A stretch of DNA of 48,433 nt from a virus, in IMG/VR virus record IMGVR_UViG_3300005663_000008, positions 1-48,433 of that record; one strand, given 5' to 3'. This document shows positions 19,185-33,825 of the stretch, one piece after another. Each line of letters opens with the position of its first letter. Position 1 is the stretch's first letter. The notes under the pieces are model-generated. The model saw nothing but the letters and a program-made list of their open reading frames with translations. It did not search any database and was not told the DNA's origin. Both the position numbers and the translations under genes were made by a program.

Positions 19185-19605
19185 ATCCGGCAATTACACC
19201 TGGTCCGCCCATCCCCCGGTCCATAGGATTACATCTAAGCTCGCCTGCCTGCCCGGTCAATAGTACAGCATGTTCCATATCAGCGGACAACTGGCCTGCC
19301 TGCCCTCACCCCTCATCCGGTTGACATTCCCACGCTTGCCAGCTTCAGGCATTTCAATTTGCCTGCCGCTGCTCCTGTCCCTGCTCAATCCAGATCCCCA
19401 TTCCATTCCTATTTCAATTTCAATTCCTATTCAATTAAAGAATTCTTTCCTAATTTGCTATAGGGGCCAAAGTTCATTGGAGGTATAGCCTGTCTATATA
19501 TATCCCAGCTCTCACCTTAATCAATTTTTCAAAAGGGATGGGGGGGGTTGCTTTTAAGGGGTAGGGGTGTTATTATATTGAAATTTTTTAAAAAAGGGGG
19601 TGTAT
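19185..19605. other. 421-bp non-coding region between small terminase and HNH genes
   Basis: No supported gene. The first 200 bases are pyrimidine-rich on the plus strand, with the 12-mer GCCTGCCTGCCC at 19243 and 19294 and a hairpin CAGGCA/TGCCTG at 19346-19365. Then follow short A/T-rich repeats (ATTCC, TTCAATT) at about 19395-19440, and finally a G-rich part at 19535-19567. Sharp strand asymmetry suggests a structural role, such as a packaging site or the remnant of an intron-like element. Confidence 0.45.
19535..19567 (+). other. G-quadruplex-type motif
   Basis: Four G runs: GGG (19535), eight G (19540-19547), GGGG (19558) and GGGG (19564), with loops of 2, 10 and 2 bases. It meets a relaxed G4 pattern on the plus strand, just upstream of the second HNH gene. 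Confidence 0.4.
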
Positions 19606-20187
19606 ATGCAGGAGAAAATCTACAAAAGGGAATGTGTGTATTGTAAGCGAAAATTTGAAACCATTAATGAAACAAAAAAATATTGTAACTCTAGGTGTAA
19701 ACATAATATGTCAAGAGTTAAACGTAGAAGATCGAGGTGGTATGTGGGTTCCCGTATATGTTTGCTCTGTAAAAAAGAATTTGAACCAAAAAGAAAAGAT
19801 GCCTGTATATGTTATCGGGATTCTTGTCGGGCAAAAGACACTCCTAAGAGTAGGGCCAAGGCAAGGGCCGAAGCAAATAAGATCGGTTGGGAAAAAATCA
19901 TAATTGAAAAAGGGATGAATAAATGTAGTAATTGTGGATACAATAAATATTTTGGTGTAATAGATTTTCATCATGTAGATTCCAAGGGGTCAAGTGATTT
20001 AATTAGTTATATTATTAAATGTATACCCACCCCAAAACGAGTTGATGAATTAGATAAGTGTGTTGCTTTATGTGCAAATTGCCATAGAGAGAAGCACATA
20101 GAGGAAGGTACTGTGGGAAATTTCAATGGTATATATTACAATGGGTATAAGAAAAAACTATCTCCTTCATTGAATTTAAAAGGGTGA
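19606..20187 (+). CDS. HNH endonuclease with N-terminal zinc fingers
   Basis: 193 aa from the ATG at 19606, preceded by AAAGGGGG. Two Cys-rich finger-like segments at the N-terminus (ECVYCKRKF, YCNSRC; ICLLCKKEF, CYRDSC) precede an HNH domain: KCSNCGYNKYFGVIDFHHVD, and CVALCANCHREKH at the end. This architecture is common in mobile HNH genes. It stands alone after a long non-coding stretch, which supports a homing origin. Basic throughout. Confidence 0.78.
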   Translation: MQEKIYKRECVYCKRKFETINETKKYCNSRCKHNMSRVKRRRSRWYVGSRICLLCKKEFEPKRKDACICYRDSCRAKDTPKSRAKARAEANKIGWEKIIIEKGMNKCSNCGYNKYFGVIDFHHVDSKGSSDLISYIIKCIPTPKRVDELDKCVALCANCHREKHIEEGTVGNFNGIYYNGYKKKLSPSLNLKG

Positions 20188-23530: not shown

Positions 23531-23672
23531 ACATTACAGGTCTACATGTGGGTGCTTGAAAAGATTAAAGAAAAATCAGGTCCCGACAATTGATCAGACC
23601 CGGTTGCATGTCTATCAAGGTGATAAAATAATTCCGTTTTGTAAGTGGTGTAATGGCAAAGAAACGATTTAA
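23505..23672 (+). CDS. Zinc-finger-like small protein, 55 aa
   Basis: Cys at C8, C15, C17, C46 and C49 (ACEHYRSTCGC, FCKWCNG) suggest a zinc site. It overlaps the previous gene by 26 bases and the terL start by 20 bases. Position directly before terL may imply coupling. Confidence 0.5.
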   Translation: MSQIPEACEHYRSTCGCLKRLKKNQVPTIDQTRLHVYQGDKIIPFCKWCNGKETI

Positions 23673-26337
23673 AAAGCCCAAACCCAAAGACATAGAGATC
23701 TATCCATTTGATCCTCATCCTCAAATCCATGTGCCCAAAGGTCATAACGGCTGGGAAGGGTACGATCCCAAAATCCATAAGACCTGGTACCAGACAAATT
23801 ATTTAGAACTCTTCAGGGAAATCAAAAGGGACCCCGATACAGCAATTCCAAAGCTCCGGCAAATTCTAATATCGGATCTATGGTTTATCTGTTACTTCAT
23901 AATGCCCTTGCCTGATGAAGTTAAGGAGTTGTTGAATCAGCCTTTTACCGTAGGATACGCGGGGAAGATCCAGAACGGTCCGATAACCGGTACTCTCGAT
24001 CTCGTAGCGCGGGAACATTTCAAGGCAGTAGATATTAATGAAAATGTATTTACTTCTGAGGGTTGGAAAAAACATGGGTCATTAAAAGTGGGCGATAAAA
24101 TATATGGTTCTAATGGAAATCTTTATAATGTTACAGAACGCACTGAAATATTTACATCTGCTGATTGTTATAGGGTTGTATTTGATGATGGATATTCAGT
24201 TGTTGTAAGCGGAGAACATCTATGGGCAGTAGAAAAACGTGGTCATCATAAACGAGAACCTATGATCATTGAAACAAAAAAATTATACAAACATCAACAT
24301 AAACCAGATAGGCGATATGCTGTAAAAGTAAATGCTCCCCTTAAATCCAGCTTGAGGTTTTTTGAATTATTGCCAATAGATCCATATACATTGGGAGCAT
24401 GGTTAGGTGACGGCACTCGTATGGATGGGGTTTTAACTTGTCAAGATAAGGAGGTCTTTGATCGTATATCAGAATTCTTTATTGTTGGTAAGGGTAGGCC
24501 GAGCAAGCCAATAACAAAAACGATAAAAGGGTTGAAGGTCAAGCTTAGAAATCAGCAATTGCTTGATAATAAACACATCCCCGAAAGATATTTTAGGGCT
24601 TCTGAACGTGATCGTGTTTCATTATTACAGGGACTTATGGATACCGATGGTACTTGTAATCCCCGTGGAACTGCAACTTTTGTTAATAAGAATTTCAGGC
24701 TCGCATCGGATGTTCATATGCTATGTTGTACTCTTGGGTTAAAACCTCAGTTTAATAGTTTTTCACAAGATCACGGGGTTGTATATTATGTATCGTTTCA
24801 AGCATATAAAAAATATCCTATATTTCACTTAAAAAGGAAACTGAAAAATTGTAAGAGTGGTGATAGAGTAGCTAGGCGATTTATAAAAGATGTTTTTAAG
24901 GTTTTGTCTATTCCTGTATCGTGTATTACTGTTGACAGTCCAGATGGTTGTTATTTAATTGGGAAATCCATGGTTACAACTCACAATAGTACCTTTATAA
25001 CCATAGGGGAAACCATCCAGTACAATATGCAATTCCCGAATAATGCCAATGCAATATTCTCCTATAACCGGGCAACTTCTAAAAGGTTCCTGAGAGAGAT
25101 AAAGCAGATCTACGAGAATGAAGATCATCCGGGCTGCAGACTTCTCCGTATGATGTTCCCGGATGTTCTATGGAGCGATCCTAAGGCCCAGGCTCCCAAA
25201 TGGTCTGAAGATGAAGGGCTGGTTCTCAAGCGTAAAACGGTATCAAGACATTCCACAATAGAAGCATGGGGTCTGCTCGATGGTATGCCTACAGGGGGTC
25301 ATTATCATAGGCGTATATATGATGATCTGGTAACTGAGGATATCGCTGCTTCTCCGGGAGAAATGGAAAAGGTTAAATTCAAATTTGACTCTTCACAGAA
25401 TCTGGGAGTTATGGCTGGTGGCCGGCACCGGGTAGCAGGGACAATTTACGCTTACGACGATCCGAATTGTTATGTCAGAGACAAGATTGAAATTATCAAC
25501 GGTGAGGAAAAACCGGTATATCATACTCGCCTATACCCCGCTACTGATGACGGTACTCCAGATGGTAATCCTGTTCTGGTATCTCCTGAGCGTTTACAGG
25601 AGCTTAAAAATACCCAGACGTTCTACTGCCAGCAGCTTTTAGATCCAGTGCCCGTAGGAGAAGCAAAATTAGACCCCGCTATGTTTATTGATATTGAACC
25701 GGAAATGATTCCGCATAAACTCTTTAAATTCGTAATTGTAGATCCAGCAGGGGACAAGGAAACTCAAAAGGGGGAAGATGACTGGGCAATTCATCTCTTG
25801 GGTGTGGAACCCTATATGGATGATATTGGTGCTTCAAATGTATATTTACTCAACTCCAAAATAGAGAAATTCGCCCATGCCCAGGCCATTGACGCGATAT
25901 GTAAAATGTATATAGATGGCGGCAGGGTAGAATGTATAGGCGTGGAAAAGGTTGGGCTTTCTTCAGTGGAAATTCATGTAGCCAATGCCATGAAGGAAAA
26001 AGGAAGATTTCTTTCTACAAAAGATGGATCTATCAGGATCCTCACTCCAGCAGGCAGGCAAAAAGACGGTCGTATCATGCAGGGAATGGATTGGCCATTA
26101 AAGAATGGGAAACTCCATATCTCCAAATCAGTGCCCAAGGCTTATAGAGATCGTATTCTCCAGGAAGCCCGGTTCTTTCCTAAGTGGTCAAAGAAGGATG
26201 GTCTTGATGCCTGGTCATATCTTTGGGATATTCTTCTGGACTTTTCTTTCTTATTTCGCAGTGAGAATGATGAGGATGACAGGGACGCAGAAAAGAGAGA
26301 TGTGGAAGCAAATGAGTTTGATCCCCTGAGGGCATAA
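23653..26337 (+). CDS. terL: Terminase large subunit with class 3-type intein
   Basis: The precursor is 894 aa; after splicing the terminase would be 573 aa. The P-loop is AREHFK (119-124) joined to STFITIGE (446 on), so the intein sits inside the Walker A-like motif between Lys and Ser. Walker B is RRIYDDLVTED (D557-D558). The nuclease domain has VIVDPAGD (D697) and ends with DGLDAWSYLWD. TerL cuts concatemers and pumps DNA into the procapsid; without splicing the ATPase should be dead. The start overlaps the previous ORF and has only a weak site (AAGTGG). Confidence 0.9.
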   Translation: MAKKRFKKPKPKDIEIYPFDPHPQIHVPKGHNGWEGYDPKIHKTWYQTNYLELFREIKRDPDTAIPKLRQILISDLWFICYFIMPLPDEVKELLNQPFTVGYAGKIQNGPITGTLDLVAREHFKAVDINENVFTSEGWKKHGSLKVGDKIYGSNGNLYNVTERTEIFTSADCYRVVFDDGYSVVVSGEHLWAVEKRGHHKREPMIIETKKLYKHQHKPDRRYAVKVNAPLKSSLRFFELLPIDPYTLGAWLGDGTRMDGVLTCQDKEVFDRISEFFIVGKGRPSKPITKTIKGLKVKLRNQQLLDNKHIPERYFRASERDRVSLLQGLMDTDGTCNPRGTATFVNKNFRLASDVHMLCCTLGLKPQFNSFSQDHGVVYYVSFQAYKKYPIFHLKRKLKNCKSGDRVARRFIKDVFKVLSIPVSCITVDSPDGCYLIGKSMVTTHNSTFITIGETIQYNMQFPNNANAIFSYNRATSKRFLREIKQIYENEDHPGCRLLRMMFPDVLWSDPKAQAPKWSEDEGLVLKRKTVSRHSTIEAWGLLDGMPTGGHYHRRIYDDLVTEDIAASPGEMEKVKFKFDSSQNLGVMAGGRHRVAGTIYAYDDPNCYVRDKIEIINGEEKPVYHTRLYPATDDGTPDGNPVLVSPERLQELKNTQTFYCQQLLDPVPVGEAKLDPAMFIDIEPEMIPHKLFKFVIVDPAGDKETQKGEDDWAIHLLGVEPYMDDIGASNVYLLNSKIEKFAHAQAIDAICKMYIDGGRVECIGVEKVGLSSVEIHVANAMKEKGRFLSTKDGSIRILTPAGRQKDGRIMQGMDWPLKNGKLHISKSVPKAYRDRILQEARFFPKWSKKDGLDAWSYLWDILLDFSFLFRSENDEDDRDAEKRDVEANEFDPLRA
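24025..24987 (+). other. Intein with LAGLIDADG homing endonuclease in terL
   Basis: 321 residues (Ala125 to Asn445 of the precursor). The first residue is Ala, not Cys or Ser. Block A is AVDINENVFTSEGWKKHGSL; block B GEHLW has Trp191; block F SCITVDSPDGCYLIG has Cys424; block G VTTHN ends with His-Asn and Ser+1, with Thr443 before His. Trp, Cys and Thr form the WCT triplet of class 3 inteins. Two dodecapeptide motifs, LGAWLGDG and LLQGLMDTDG, retain their acidic residues, so the endonuclease looks intact. Confidence 0.85.
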
Positions 26338-27491: not shown

Positions 27492-28197
27492 AGGTGGAGG
27501 CGGGGGCGGGTCAGATAATATCAGCCGGGAATCTCTGGATCTGCAAAAGGAAATGTTTGAATTCCAGAAGGAACAAGTTAAGTTAGCTAAGCAGGGCCGG
27601 GAATCAGAGGAAGCGAAACTCGCAGCTCAGGCTGAACTCACCACTCGATTAAATAGGCAGGGCAGACAATCCACTATTAAAACTATCAAGAAAAGGGAAA
27701 GTTTTGATATTTTCTTTGAGCAATTCAAAAAAGATCAACCTCTGGATATCCCTGATTCAGTTCCGGTAGATCAGGCATTACAAGATAAATTTAGAAGTGA
27801 TATCACAACTGAACTGGGAGCTGAGTTTGATGCTCGGCTGGACAATAGAGGGTCTGGTTATGTATTTAGAGGTAATAACCCCAGTAAGCGGCTTATTGTA
27901 GATAGCTCAGGGAAGTTAATTACACAGACTAAAAATGCTGAACTAGGGGGTTTTGATGAGCTTTCAAGAGGATCTTCCTTGGCAACAAAGGATTTATTCA
28001 TTTCCAGAAATATTGAATCCCGTACCAGCTCTGCAATCTCAACCGCTACTACTGCTGAGGATCGTAGGCGCAAAGAAGCTGAGAAATTACAATTACAATC
28101 TGGGCGTAAGGCCCATGGTGAACAAAAACCATTTGAAAGATTGATAACTTCCCCAGCTAGAGTTCGACAGGCCGGATTTCTAAGGAGAAATATATAG
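27484..28197 (+). CDS. Virion-associated protein of unknown function
   Basis: 237 aa. The N-terminus is MGKGGGGGGSDN, followed by a coiled-coil helix (SLDLQKEMFEFQKEQVKLAK) and a repetitive charged C-terminus that ends RRNI. Proteins of this appearance precede portal genes in many podoviruses and may be minor structural or internal proteins. Overlaps the portal start. Confidence 0.5.
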   Translation: MGKGGGGGGSDNISRESLDLQKEMFEFQKEQVKLAKQGRESEEAKLAAQAELTTRLNRQGRQSTIKTIKKRESFDIFFEQFKKDQPLDIPDSVPVDQALQDKFRSDITTELGAEFDARLDNRGSGYVFRGNNPSKRLIVDSSGKLITQTKNAELGGFDELSRGSSLATKDLFISRNIESRTSSAISTATTAEDRRRKEAEKLQLQSGRKAHGEQKPFERLITSPARVRQAGFLRRNI

Positions 28198-29960
28198 TGG
28201 GTGACGCTCACGAAATCAATACTGGAGCTGGTACCAGAAAACAGTTGAACGATATGCAGCTGCTGAAAAAGCATCTGGACTATCTCATAAGGATCCGGCA
28301 GCCCATGGATGATGGGATATGGAAAGATCTCGGGGAAAATCTTTCTCCTTACCGGGAAGATATGGTAGGCGGGGTAAATAATAAGGGGACCTTACAACGG
28401 GGTAGACGTAAAGCAACAAAGATATTTGACAGTTCCGCTTTGAATTATTTAAACATATTTGCTGATGGACTTCATGGCAATATGATAAATCCATCTATTG
28501 TATGGTTTATCCAGCGGCTTCCCAGACAATACCGGTTCCTTGAGGATATCCCGGAAGTTCTCGCCTGGATGCAGGATACCCAGGAAGTGATTTATTCGGC
28601 TTTCCAGAATTCAAATTTCTATTCCCAGATGAGGCAGTATTTTAAGGATGGGGGATCCATAGGCACCGCTAATCTATTTGTTGAAGAGGACAGTGTTGAA
28701 AACAGGCTGGTATTCCATGCGCTTCATCCAAGGGAGTCTTATATAGCTGAGGACAAATTTGGGAATGTAGATACGGTGTTTCGAGTGTTCCCGGTTACAG
28801 CCCGTGTTATAAAGGATATGTTCGGCCTGGATAAAATGTCCATGACAGCGAAACAGGCTTATGCAAATAATCCTTTTACTGAAATAGATATTGTCCATGC
28901 TGTTTATCCTAATGATGAATTTGATAGAAGTAAATTGGGTAATAAATTCAAGAAATTTGCCTCAAGATGGTTTGAACGTGACGCAATTGATAATTCTCCA
29001 TTCCTCAGGGAAAAAGGTTATGATAACTTCCCGTTTCATGTATGGAGGTACTACCGAGGGGATCCAGGTCCTTATGGTGATTCTCCGGGAGTATTTGCCC
29101 TTGCGGAAATTATGGGGCTTCAGGCCATGCGCAAAACCTTACTCCGCGCCGGGCATATATCTACAGATCCGGCCTATAATGTTCCGGGGGAAATGAAGGG
29201 TAAGGTTAGAATCCATCCGGGCGGTATGAATTACATCGGCCCTGATTATAATCGTATCATTCGCCCAGTAACTACAGGTATTCAATATCCCATAGGCAAA
29301 GACATGGTTGAAGATTCACGTGAGATATTAAAACGTCACTTCCATGTGGACTTCTTTTTAATGCTTGAACAGGCTGAACGTCAGATGACAGCAAGAGAGG
29401 TTATTGAGCGCATGGGAGAAAAGGCTTCTATCCTGGCAGCTTCAATTGGCGATCTTACAGTTATGCTGGATTCTATTATAGATACAGTATTTGATATTGA
29501 ATTTAAAGCCGGAAGAATCAGTAAGCCGCCGAGGATTTTAAGTGAAGTTATGGGCGGTCAGAGAATCCCTACTGAATATCAAGGACCTCTTGCTCAGGCT
29601 CAGAGGCGCTTATTTGAAACTCGTGGGATTGTGGACTCTCTGGAGATGACGGTACCTTACATGGAGTTTTTCCCGCAAGTACAGGATCTTATTAATACAG
29701 ACAGAACCTTCCGGGATCTCCTTACTTCATTTGGCTTTCCTCAGGACAATTTAAATTCTATTCAAGAAGTGGAAATTATTCGGGAAAATAGATCTCTCCA
29801 GGCTCAGGAAGAGGGAACAAAGGTTGATATGGAAAGAATGAGCGCCTTATTAAAGGATCTTTCTCAGGCTGATAAAAACAGCGGGGGTAAACTTGCTCCT
29901 GCAATACAGCAAATTCTGGCTCAATCAGGAGTCCAGTCCCCAGGGGCGGTACCGGTATGA
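28197..29960 (+). CDS. Portal (head-to-tail connector) protein
   Basis: 587 aa from a GTG that overlaps the previous stop. It resembles the T7-type head-tail connector family: an N-terminal helix region (LLKKHLDYLIRIRQPMDDGI), KIFDSSALNYLNIFADGLHGNMI, then GSIGTANLFVEED, and DNFPFHVWRYYRGDPGPYG with SPGVFALAEI, the conserved crown-entry motif. It forms the 12-mer ring through which DNA enters. Length matches the family. Confidence 0.85.
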   Translation: MGDAHEINTGAGTRKQLNDMQLLKKHLDYLIRIRQPMDDGIWKDLGENLSPYREDMVGGVNNKGTLQRGRRKATKIFDSSALNYLNIFADGLHGNMINPSIVWFIQRLPRQYRFLEDIPEVLAWMQDTQEVIYSAFQNSNFYSQMRQYFKDGGSIGTANLFVEEDSVENRLVFHALHPRESYIAEDKFGNVDTVFRVFPVTARVIKDMFGLDKMSMTAKQAYANNPFTEIDIVHAVYPNDEFDRSKLGNKFKKFASRWFERDAIDNSPFLREKGYDNFPFHVWRYYRGDPGPYGDSPGVFALAEIMGLQAMRKTLLRAGHISTDPAYNVPGEMKGKVRIHPGGMNYIGPDYNRIIRPVTTGIQYPIGKDMVEDSREILKRHFHVDFFLMLEQAERQMTAREVIERMGEKASILAASIGDLTVMLDSIIDTVFDIEFKAGRISKPPRILSEVMGGQRIPTEYQGPLAQAQRRLFETRGIVDSLEMTVPYMEFFPQVQDLINTDRTFRDLLTSFGFPQDNLNSIQEVEIIRENRSLQAQEEGTKVDMERMSALLKDLSQADKNSGGKLAPAIQQILAQSGVQSPGAVPV

Positions 29961-32838: not shown

Positions 32839-33825
32839 ATGGCAACAAACCTGCCGTCACTATACACATTAGTTGAACAGGCAAAGCAGATATCTCCTGA
32901 AGGAAAGCAGATGAGGATTGCCGAGGTAATGGCAAAAGAAATATCAATGGTTGTTGATATTCCTTTCTATCCTTCTAATGATATCTGGTCGCACAAATCG
33001 TTAAGAGCTGCTTCTATTCCTGCCGGTACCTGGAGAGGCGTGAATGAATACGTTGCTTCAGAAGTAGCGCTGGATGATGAAGTTCTTGACGTTATCGGAA
33101 TTTGCGAAACATTTGCAACATACGATATTGAGTATATTGATAATATGCCTGATCCTATGGCCGCAAGGTTAAGAAAAGCGAAAAGGTATATTGAGGGGTT
33201 GGCGCAGACATTATGCTCTGCGTTCCTGTATTCCAACAATCAGGCAACTCCGAAAAAGCCGCATGGTATTGCTCCACGGCTTAACGCTACAGGCCGCTAT
33301 GTTATTTCCAATGGCGGATCTTCAGCTCTTACATCCATCTATGTAATTAACTGGGATGAGGATACTGTATATGGAGTGTATCCGAAAAACTCGGAAGCTC
33401 CTAACGGAGATCCCTATCCGGTTATGCACAAAGATCTGGGTGAGAGAGTGGACGTGAATTCAAGCGGTAATAAGCTCAGGGTTTATGAGGACAACTTCAA
33501 GATGAAGGCTGGACTTGTCATTGAGGACAACCGGGCAATAGGTCGAGTCTGTAATGTCCCCTCAGCTACAGCTGCAACACAGACATGGGAAAACGATCTC
33601 ATAGTCCTGATGGACAGAATGAAAACCGGACCGGGCACAAGGATATACATGAATGAAGCCATGATATCCGCTGCCAGAATCAGGATGAAGGACAAGAACA
33701 ATGTTCACTGGACTCCTGATGGTGGTAAGGGCCTATTCGGAGAATCTGTCATGAAGTTTGATGAAACTCCAGTGCGGAAAATTGATTCCGCAATCCTGCT
33801 GAACTCTGAAAGTTCGGTAACATAG
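32839..33825 (+). CDS. Major capsid protein
   Basis: 328 aa, HK97-fold type by context and composition. The start has an excellent AAGGAGATAAACG. Features: N-terminal helix LPSLYTLVEQAKQISPEGKQM, MVVDIPFYPSNDIWSHKS and MDRMKTGPGTRIYMNEAM, characteristic of the BPP-1-like major capsid family. It lies between scaffold and decoration genes. Assembly into an icosahedral shell is the expected role. Confidence 0.83.
   Translation: MATNLPSLYTLVEQAKQISPEGKQMRIAEVMAKEISMVVDIPFYPSNDIWSHKSLRAASIPAGTWRGVNEYVASEVALDDEVLDVIGICETFATYDIEYIDNMPDPMAARLRKAKRYIEGLAQTLCSAFLYSNNQATPKKPHGIAPRLNATGRYVISNGGSSALTSIYVINWDEDTVYGVYPKNSEAPNGDPYPVMHKDLGERVDVNSSGNKLRVYEDNFKMKAGLVIEDNRAIGRVCNVPSATAATQTWENDLIVLMDRMKTGPGTRIYMNEAMISAARIRMKDKNNVHWTPDGGKGLFGESVMKFDETPVRKIDSAILLNSESSVT

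Follow-up and report, generated by a model that had tools for sequence, protein, structure and literature searches.

The question raised by this locus is what kind of element interrupts the nucleotide-binding loop of a phage terminase gene, and whether that element is still mobile. The window, by which we mean the whole 48,433-base IMG/VR virus record analysed here, contains on its plus strand an open reading frame (23653-26337, 894 aa) that encodes a phage large terminase (TerL). Among the PHROGs, phrog_38 (terminase large subunit) matches the C-extein, over residues 444-874 with E = 7.3e-31. Three further terminase families, phrog_36964, phrog_15 and phrog_19299, match chiefly through the intein, which indicates that inteins are present in those terminase profiles. 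Neither the precursor nor its C-extein has a match in Pfam, and the extein is therefore a divergent terminase, recognised through the PHROGs and through its homologues. This identity is in keeping with the gene neighbourhood, in which 18639-19184 matches packaging protein gp3/small terminase, 28197-29960 a head-tail connector protein and 32839-33825 a major capsid protein of the GP7 type. A free-standing HNH endonuclease gene of low G+C (19600-20187, + strand; phrog_2255, E = 2.1e-15), possibly a second homing element of the packaging region, lies between TerL and the small-terminase-like gene.

The features of the gene are as follows.

23653..26337, + strand: intein-interrupted TerL precursor, identified by PHROG terminase large subunit matches and homologue alignment
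23653..24024, + strand: N-extein, residues 1-124, ending in LDLVAREHFK, the first half of Walker A
24025..24987, + strand: class 3 intein with LAGLIDADG endonuclease domain, 321 aa, precursor residues 125-445
24217..24225, + strand: block B H65-L66-W67, the catalytic-triad His and the WCT Trp, from invariance and alignment to 6rix/6bs8
24388..24414, + strand: first LAGLIDADG motif, TLGAWLGDG (D129), with GDG invariant in 19 aligned inteins
24622..24651, + strand: second LAGLIDADG motif, LLQGLMDTDG (D208), with the core DTDG invariant in 19 aligned inteins and a weak Pfam LAGLIDADG_3 match below the cut-off
24922..24924, + strand: block F Cys300 (precursor Cys424), predicted initiating nucleophile, invariant and aligned to the block F Cys of 6rix/6bs8
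24979..24987, + strand: block G T319-H320-N321, the WCT Thr, penultimate His and terminal Asn, with THN invariant
24988..26334, + strand: C-extein, beginning with Ser (the +1 nucleophile) and running from the second half of Walker A onward

The intein is in frame and splits the Walker A loop as REHFK/S (the slash marks the junction), that is, between HFK and STF, where a sequence-only reading of this DNA had placed it; the boundaries 24025-24987 and the number Cys424 given there were exact. Its first position is Ala (A1), with no Cys or Ser nucleophile there. Block B reads GEHLW, block F SCITVDSPDG and block G VTTHN, so that the three positions that mark class 3 (WCT) are all filled, by Trp in block B, Cys at F:4 and Thr at G:5. 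The C-terminal junction, THN/S, has the terminal Asn, the penultimate His and the +1 nucleophile. The residues H65, W67, C300, T319, H320 and N321 are unchanged throughout our alignment of 19 inteins. The top PDB matches found with phmmer are 6rix (MchDnaB1, E = 1.6e-13) and 6bs8 (MsmDnaB1, 4e-13), which we take as class 3 DnaB inteins following PMC7664689 and the PDB title, and in these alignments Trp67, Cys300 and THN fall on the block B Trp, the block F Cys and the THN of the solved inteins. The block B Trp and block F Cys are thus not displaced from the class 3 positions, and the class proposed from the letters alone is borne out. NCBIfam and Pfam match the intein only weakly, and tblastn finds 742 phage records that match it. 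An Ala at position 1 would also be expected of a class 2 or degenerate class 1 intein in which the +1 residue attacks directly, but the Trp, Cys and Thr stand at class 3 positions and are invariant among the relatives, and the solved structures that are matched best belong to class 3. On these grounds the class 2 reading was rejected, and we regard it as very improbable.

Intein-free homologues were gathered with a degenerate DNA pattern for an uninterrupted W[A/P]REHFK[S/T]T, which yielded 74 viral contigs from IMG/VR; since this set was collected by exact motif, prevalence cannot be estimated from the share of sites that are occupied. All 74 terminases are contiguous across the junction and align without a gap to the joined extein, with which they share 26-50% identity, and the Manatee Spring terminase (MW202554) likewise aligns straight through the site as RGHLK/THI. 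When viral contigs were searched with just the C-extein, or with several C-exteins aligned, nothing usable came up. The contiguity of the homologues at the site, a comparison that the sequence-only reading had called for, means that the segment is an insert and not a part of the terminase fold. The reading frame does run on continuously with the terminase, as it would if the segment were a natural insertion domain of the terminase family and no intein at all. That explanation is refuted by the intein-free homologues; moreover, the segment carries complete intein splice motifs and a HINT/LAGLIDADG fold, and the same type of insert occurs in other proteins, for example a phage DnaB, so that the probability left to it is negligible. 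The E-value of 1.6e-13 to a solved intein, together with the 742 phage records and the 74 contiguous homologues, also rules out a chance match. Considering the sequence, the motifs, the predicted fold, the empty site and the patchy distribution described below, the segment is almost certainly a full-length intein of class 3, equipped with a LAGLIDADG endonuclease and lodged in a phage TerL between the Lys of Walker A and the next Ser; no observation speaks against this identity.

The AlphaFold2 model of the intein is confident (pLDDT 93.4) and shows a HINT fold with an endonuclease fold located between the splicing halves. In Foldseek searches it matched two-domain PI-SceI inteins (TMq up to 0.80), the class 3 DnaB intein 6bs8 (TMt 0.82-0.83) and also I-DmoI. 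The catalytic Asp is retained in each LAGLIDADG motif, in agreement with the earlier claim that both motifs are intact; D129 and D208, and likewise K183 and K272, are invariant in the 19 aligned inteins.

A class 3 intein is present at the same TerL residue in ten other viral contigs (L002-L007, L010, L012, L102 and L103). The eleven occupied terminases are scattered on the terminase tree, a quick tree with intein-free rows picked by motif, on which at least nine gains or losses are needed; such a patchy distribution is what a homing element should show. In the intein tree, those of this site cluster separately from those of other sites, with 88/94 support. The G+C content of the intein is 35% compared with 44% in its own extein, and the respective values for third positions are 0.23 and 0.43; because several other genes of the window are equally low in third-position GC, this is a weak sign of foreign origin. 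A scan in which each bacterial and archaeal species was represented by a single genome, made with short exact peptides and thus liable to miss distant relatives, confirmed no relative of the intein. We find it rather probable that the REHFK/S site in this poorly sampled family of terminases is home to a separate class 3 intein lineage, distinct from the mycobacteriophage TerL inteins and spread repeatedly among uncultivated viruses by P-loop homing. A variant of the class 3 reading, differing from it in mobility alone, would have the intein still splicing while its endonuclease is no longer active and the element is kept by descent. Activity is not revealed by sequence, and the occupied terminases are far apart (28-38% identity to the window extein), which would suit this variant; the retention of both catalytic Asp residues and of Lys183 and Lys272 in all relatives, the number of changes on the terminase tree and the difference in third-position GC between intein and extein speak against it, and we consider it unlikely, though to be taken seriously. 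Five of the same-site inteins (L006, L007, L010, L012 and L102) have Asp and not Ala at the start; Trp in block B, Cys in block F and THN are retained in them, and the five form their own branch. A related intein in another viral protein (L015, 3001-3996) is Cys-initial, ends as TSN/C and has a Cys in block F too; it may be a class 1-like or transitional member.

In the published class 3 route, the block F Cys, helped by a His and a Thr, attacks the N-terminal splice junction, the acyl group then shifts to the +1 residue, and the intein is freed when Asn cyclises (PMC7664689, PMC7891396, PMC5050341). By analogy with these known inteins, Cys300, activated by His65 and Thr319, would attack the peptide bond between Lys(-1) and Ala1 to give a branched thioester. 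The chain would then move to Ser+1, Asn321 would cyclise and the exteins would be ligated as REHFKST with the P-loop restored. Since this spliced product is the intact Walker A loop, DNA packaging should require splicing. On the same analogy, terminase alleles that lack the intein are probably cut by its endonuclease domain, upon which the intein DNA would be copied in.

In mycobacteriophages, inteins occur most often in TerL; the sites used most are TerL1-a and -b, both in the P-loop, the TerL1-c, -d and -e inteins are treated as class 3, and both splicing and DNA cutting have been demonstrated for the TerL1-c (Bethlehem) intein (PMC5050341). The window insertion, in the TerL Walker A loop and adjoining its Lys, has the location that characterises TerL1-a and -b. 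Mycobacterium phage JeTaime, one of the hundreds of matching phage records, has a class 3 intein in its TerL (gp10). This intein shows Ala1, W, C and THN, and its insertion site, RKNGK/T, would, judging from its sequence, represent the TerL1-a site of PMC5050341. Like ours, it is a LAGLIDADG class 3 intein starting with Ala1 between the TerL Walker A Lys and the next Thr; however, the two inteins share 36% identity and reside in different terminase families (NGK/T in JeTaime, REHFK/S in the window). The inteins of the ten uncultivated viral contigs share with ours the terminase family, the residue and the WCT triplet, but their identity to it is 32-50% and five are Asp-initial. The mycobacterial DnaB class 3 inteins (6bs8, 6rix; PMC6195587, PMC7664689) have the same splicing-domain motifs and fold; in contrast to the window intein, the solved ones are mini-inteins that lack an endonuclease domain, and their host protein is DnaB. 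The inteins TerL1-c, -d and -e likewise belong to class 3 and sit in phage TerL, but at other places in the ATPase domain (PMC5050341). The earlier suggestion of a new host protein context therefore does not stand, given the published class 3 inteins in phage TerL and those at Lys/Ser or Lys/Thr P-loop sites (PMC5050341), the JeTaime intein and the ten viral contigs. Nor are class 3 inteins few, as had been stated, for 1701 were known in nr by 2020, with LAGLIDADG motifs in 82.5% (PMC7891396). Class, host protein and site were already known; what is new is limited to the sequence and the terminase family. The locus contributes a clean and apparently intact class 3 intein, housed in a divergent phage terminase of which many alleles free of the intein can be compared, and confirms the pattern that class 3 inteins occupy the P-loops of phage DNA enzymes; the understanding of their mechanism or evolution is unchanged by it.

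Two minor observations concern annotation and the terminase family. The profiles phrog_510 and phrog_50, named DNA primase and DnaC-like loader, match the window at the intein alone (24025-24987), which means that these profiles contain intein sequence and may misname intein-bearing proteins. The same terminase family also has a second insertion site further downstream, before CQQ, where the TerL reading frame of L095 (804 aa) and that of L024 (MW202554.1, 2923-4578) bear a different insert, with the junctions FN/CHAAGTK...SKN/CQQ and FA/CSRPDM...SRN/CQQ. Being Cys-initial, this insert is apparently a class 1 intein.
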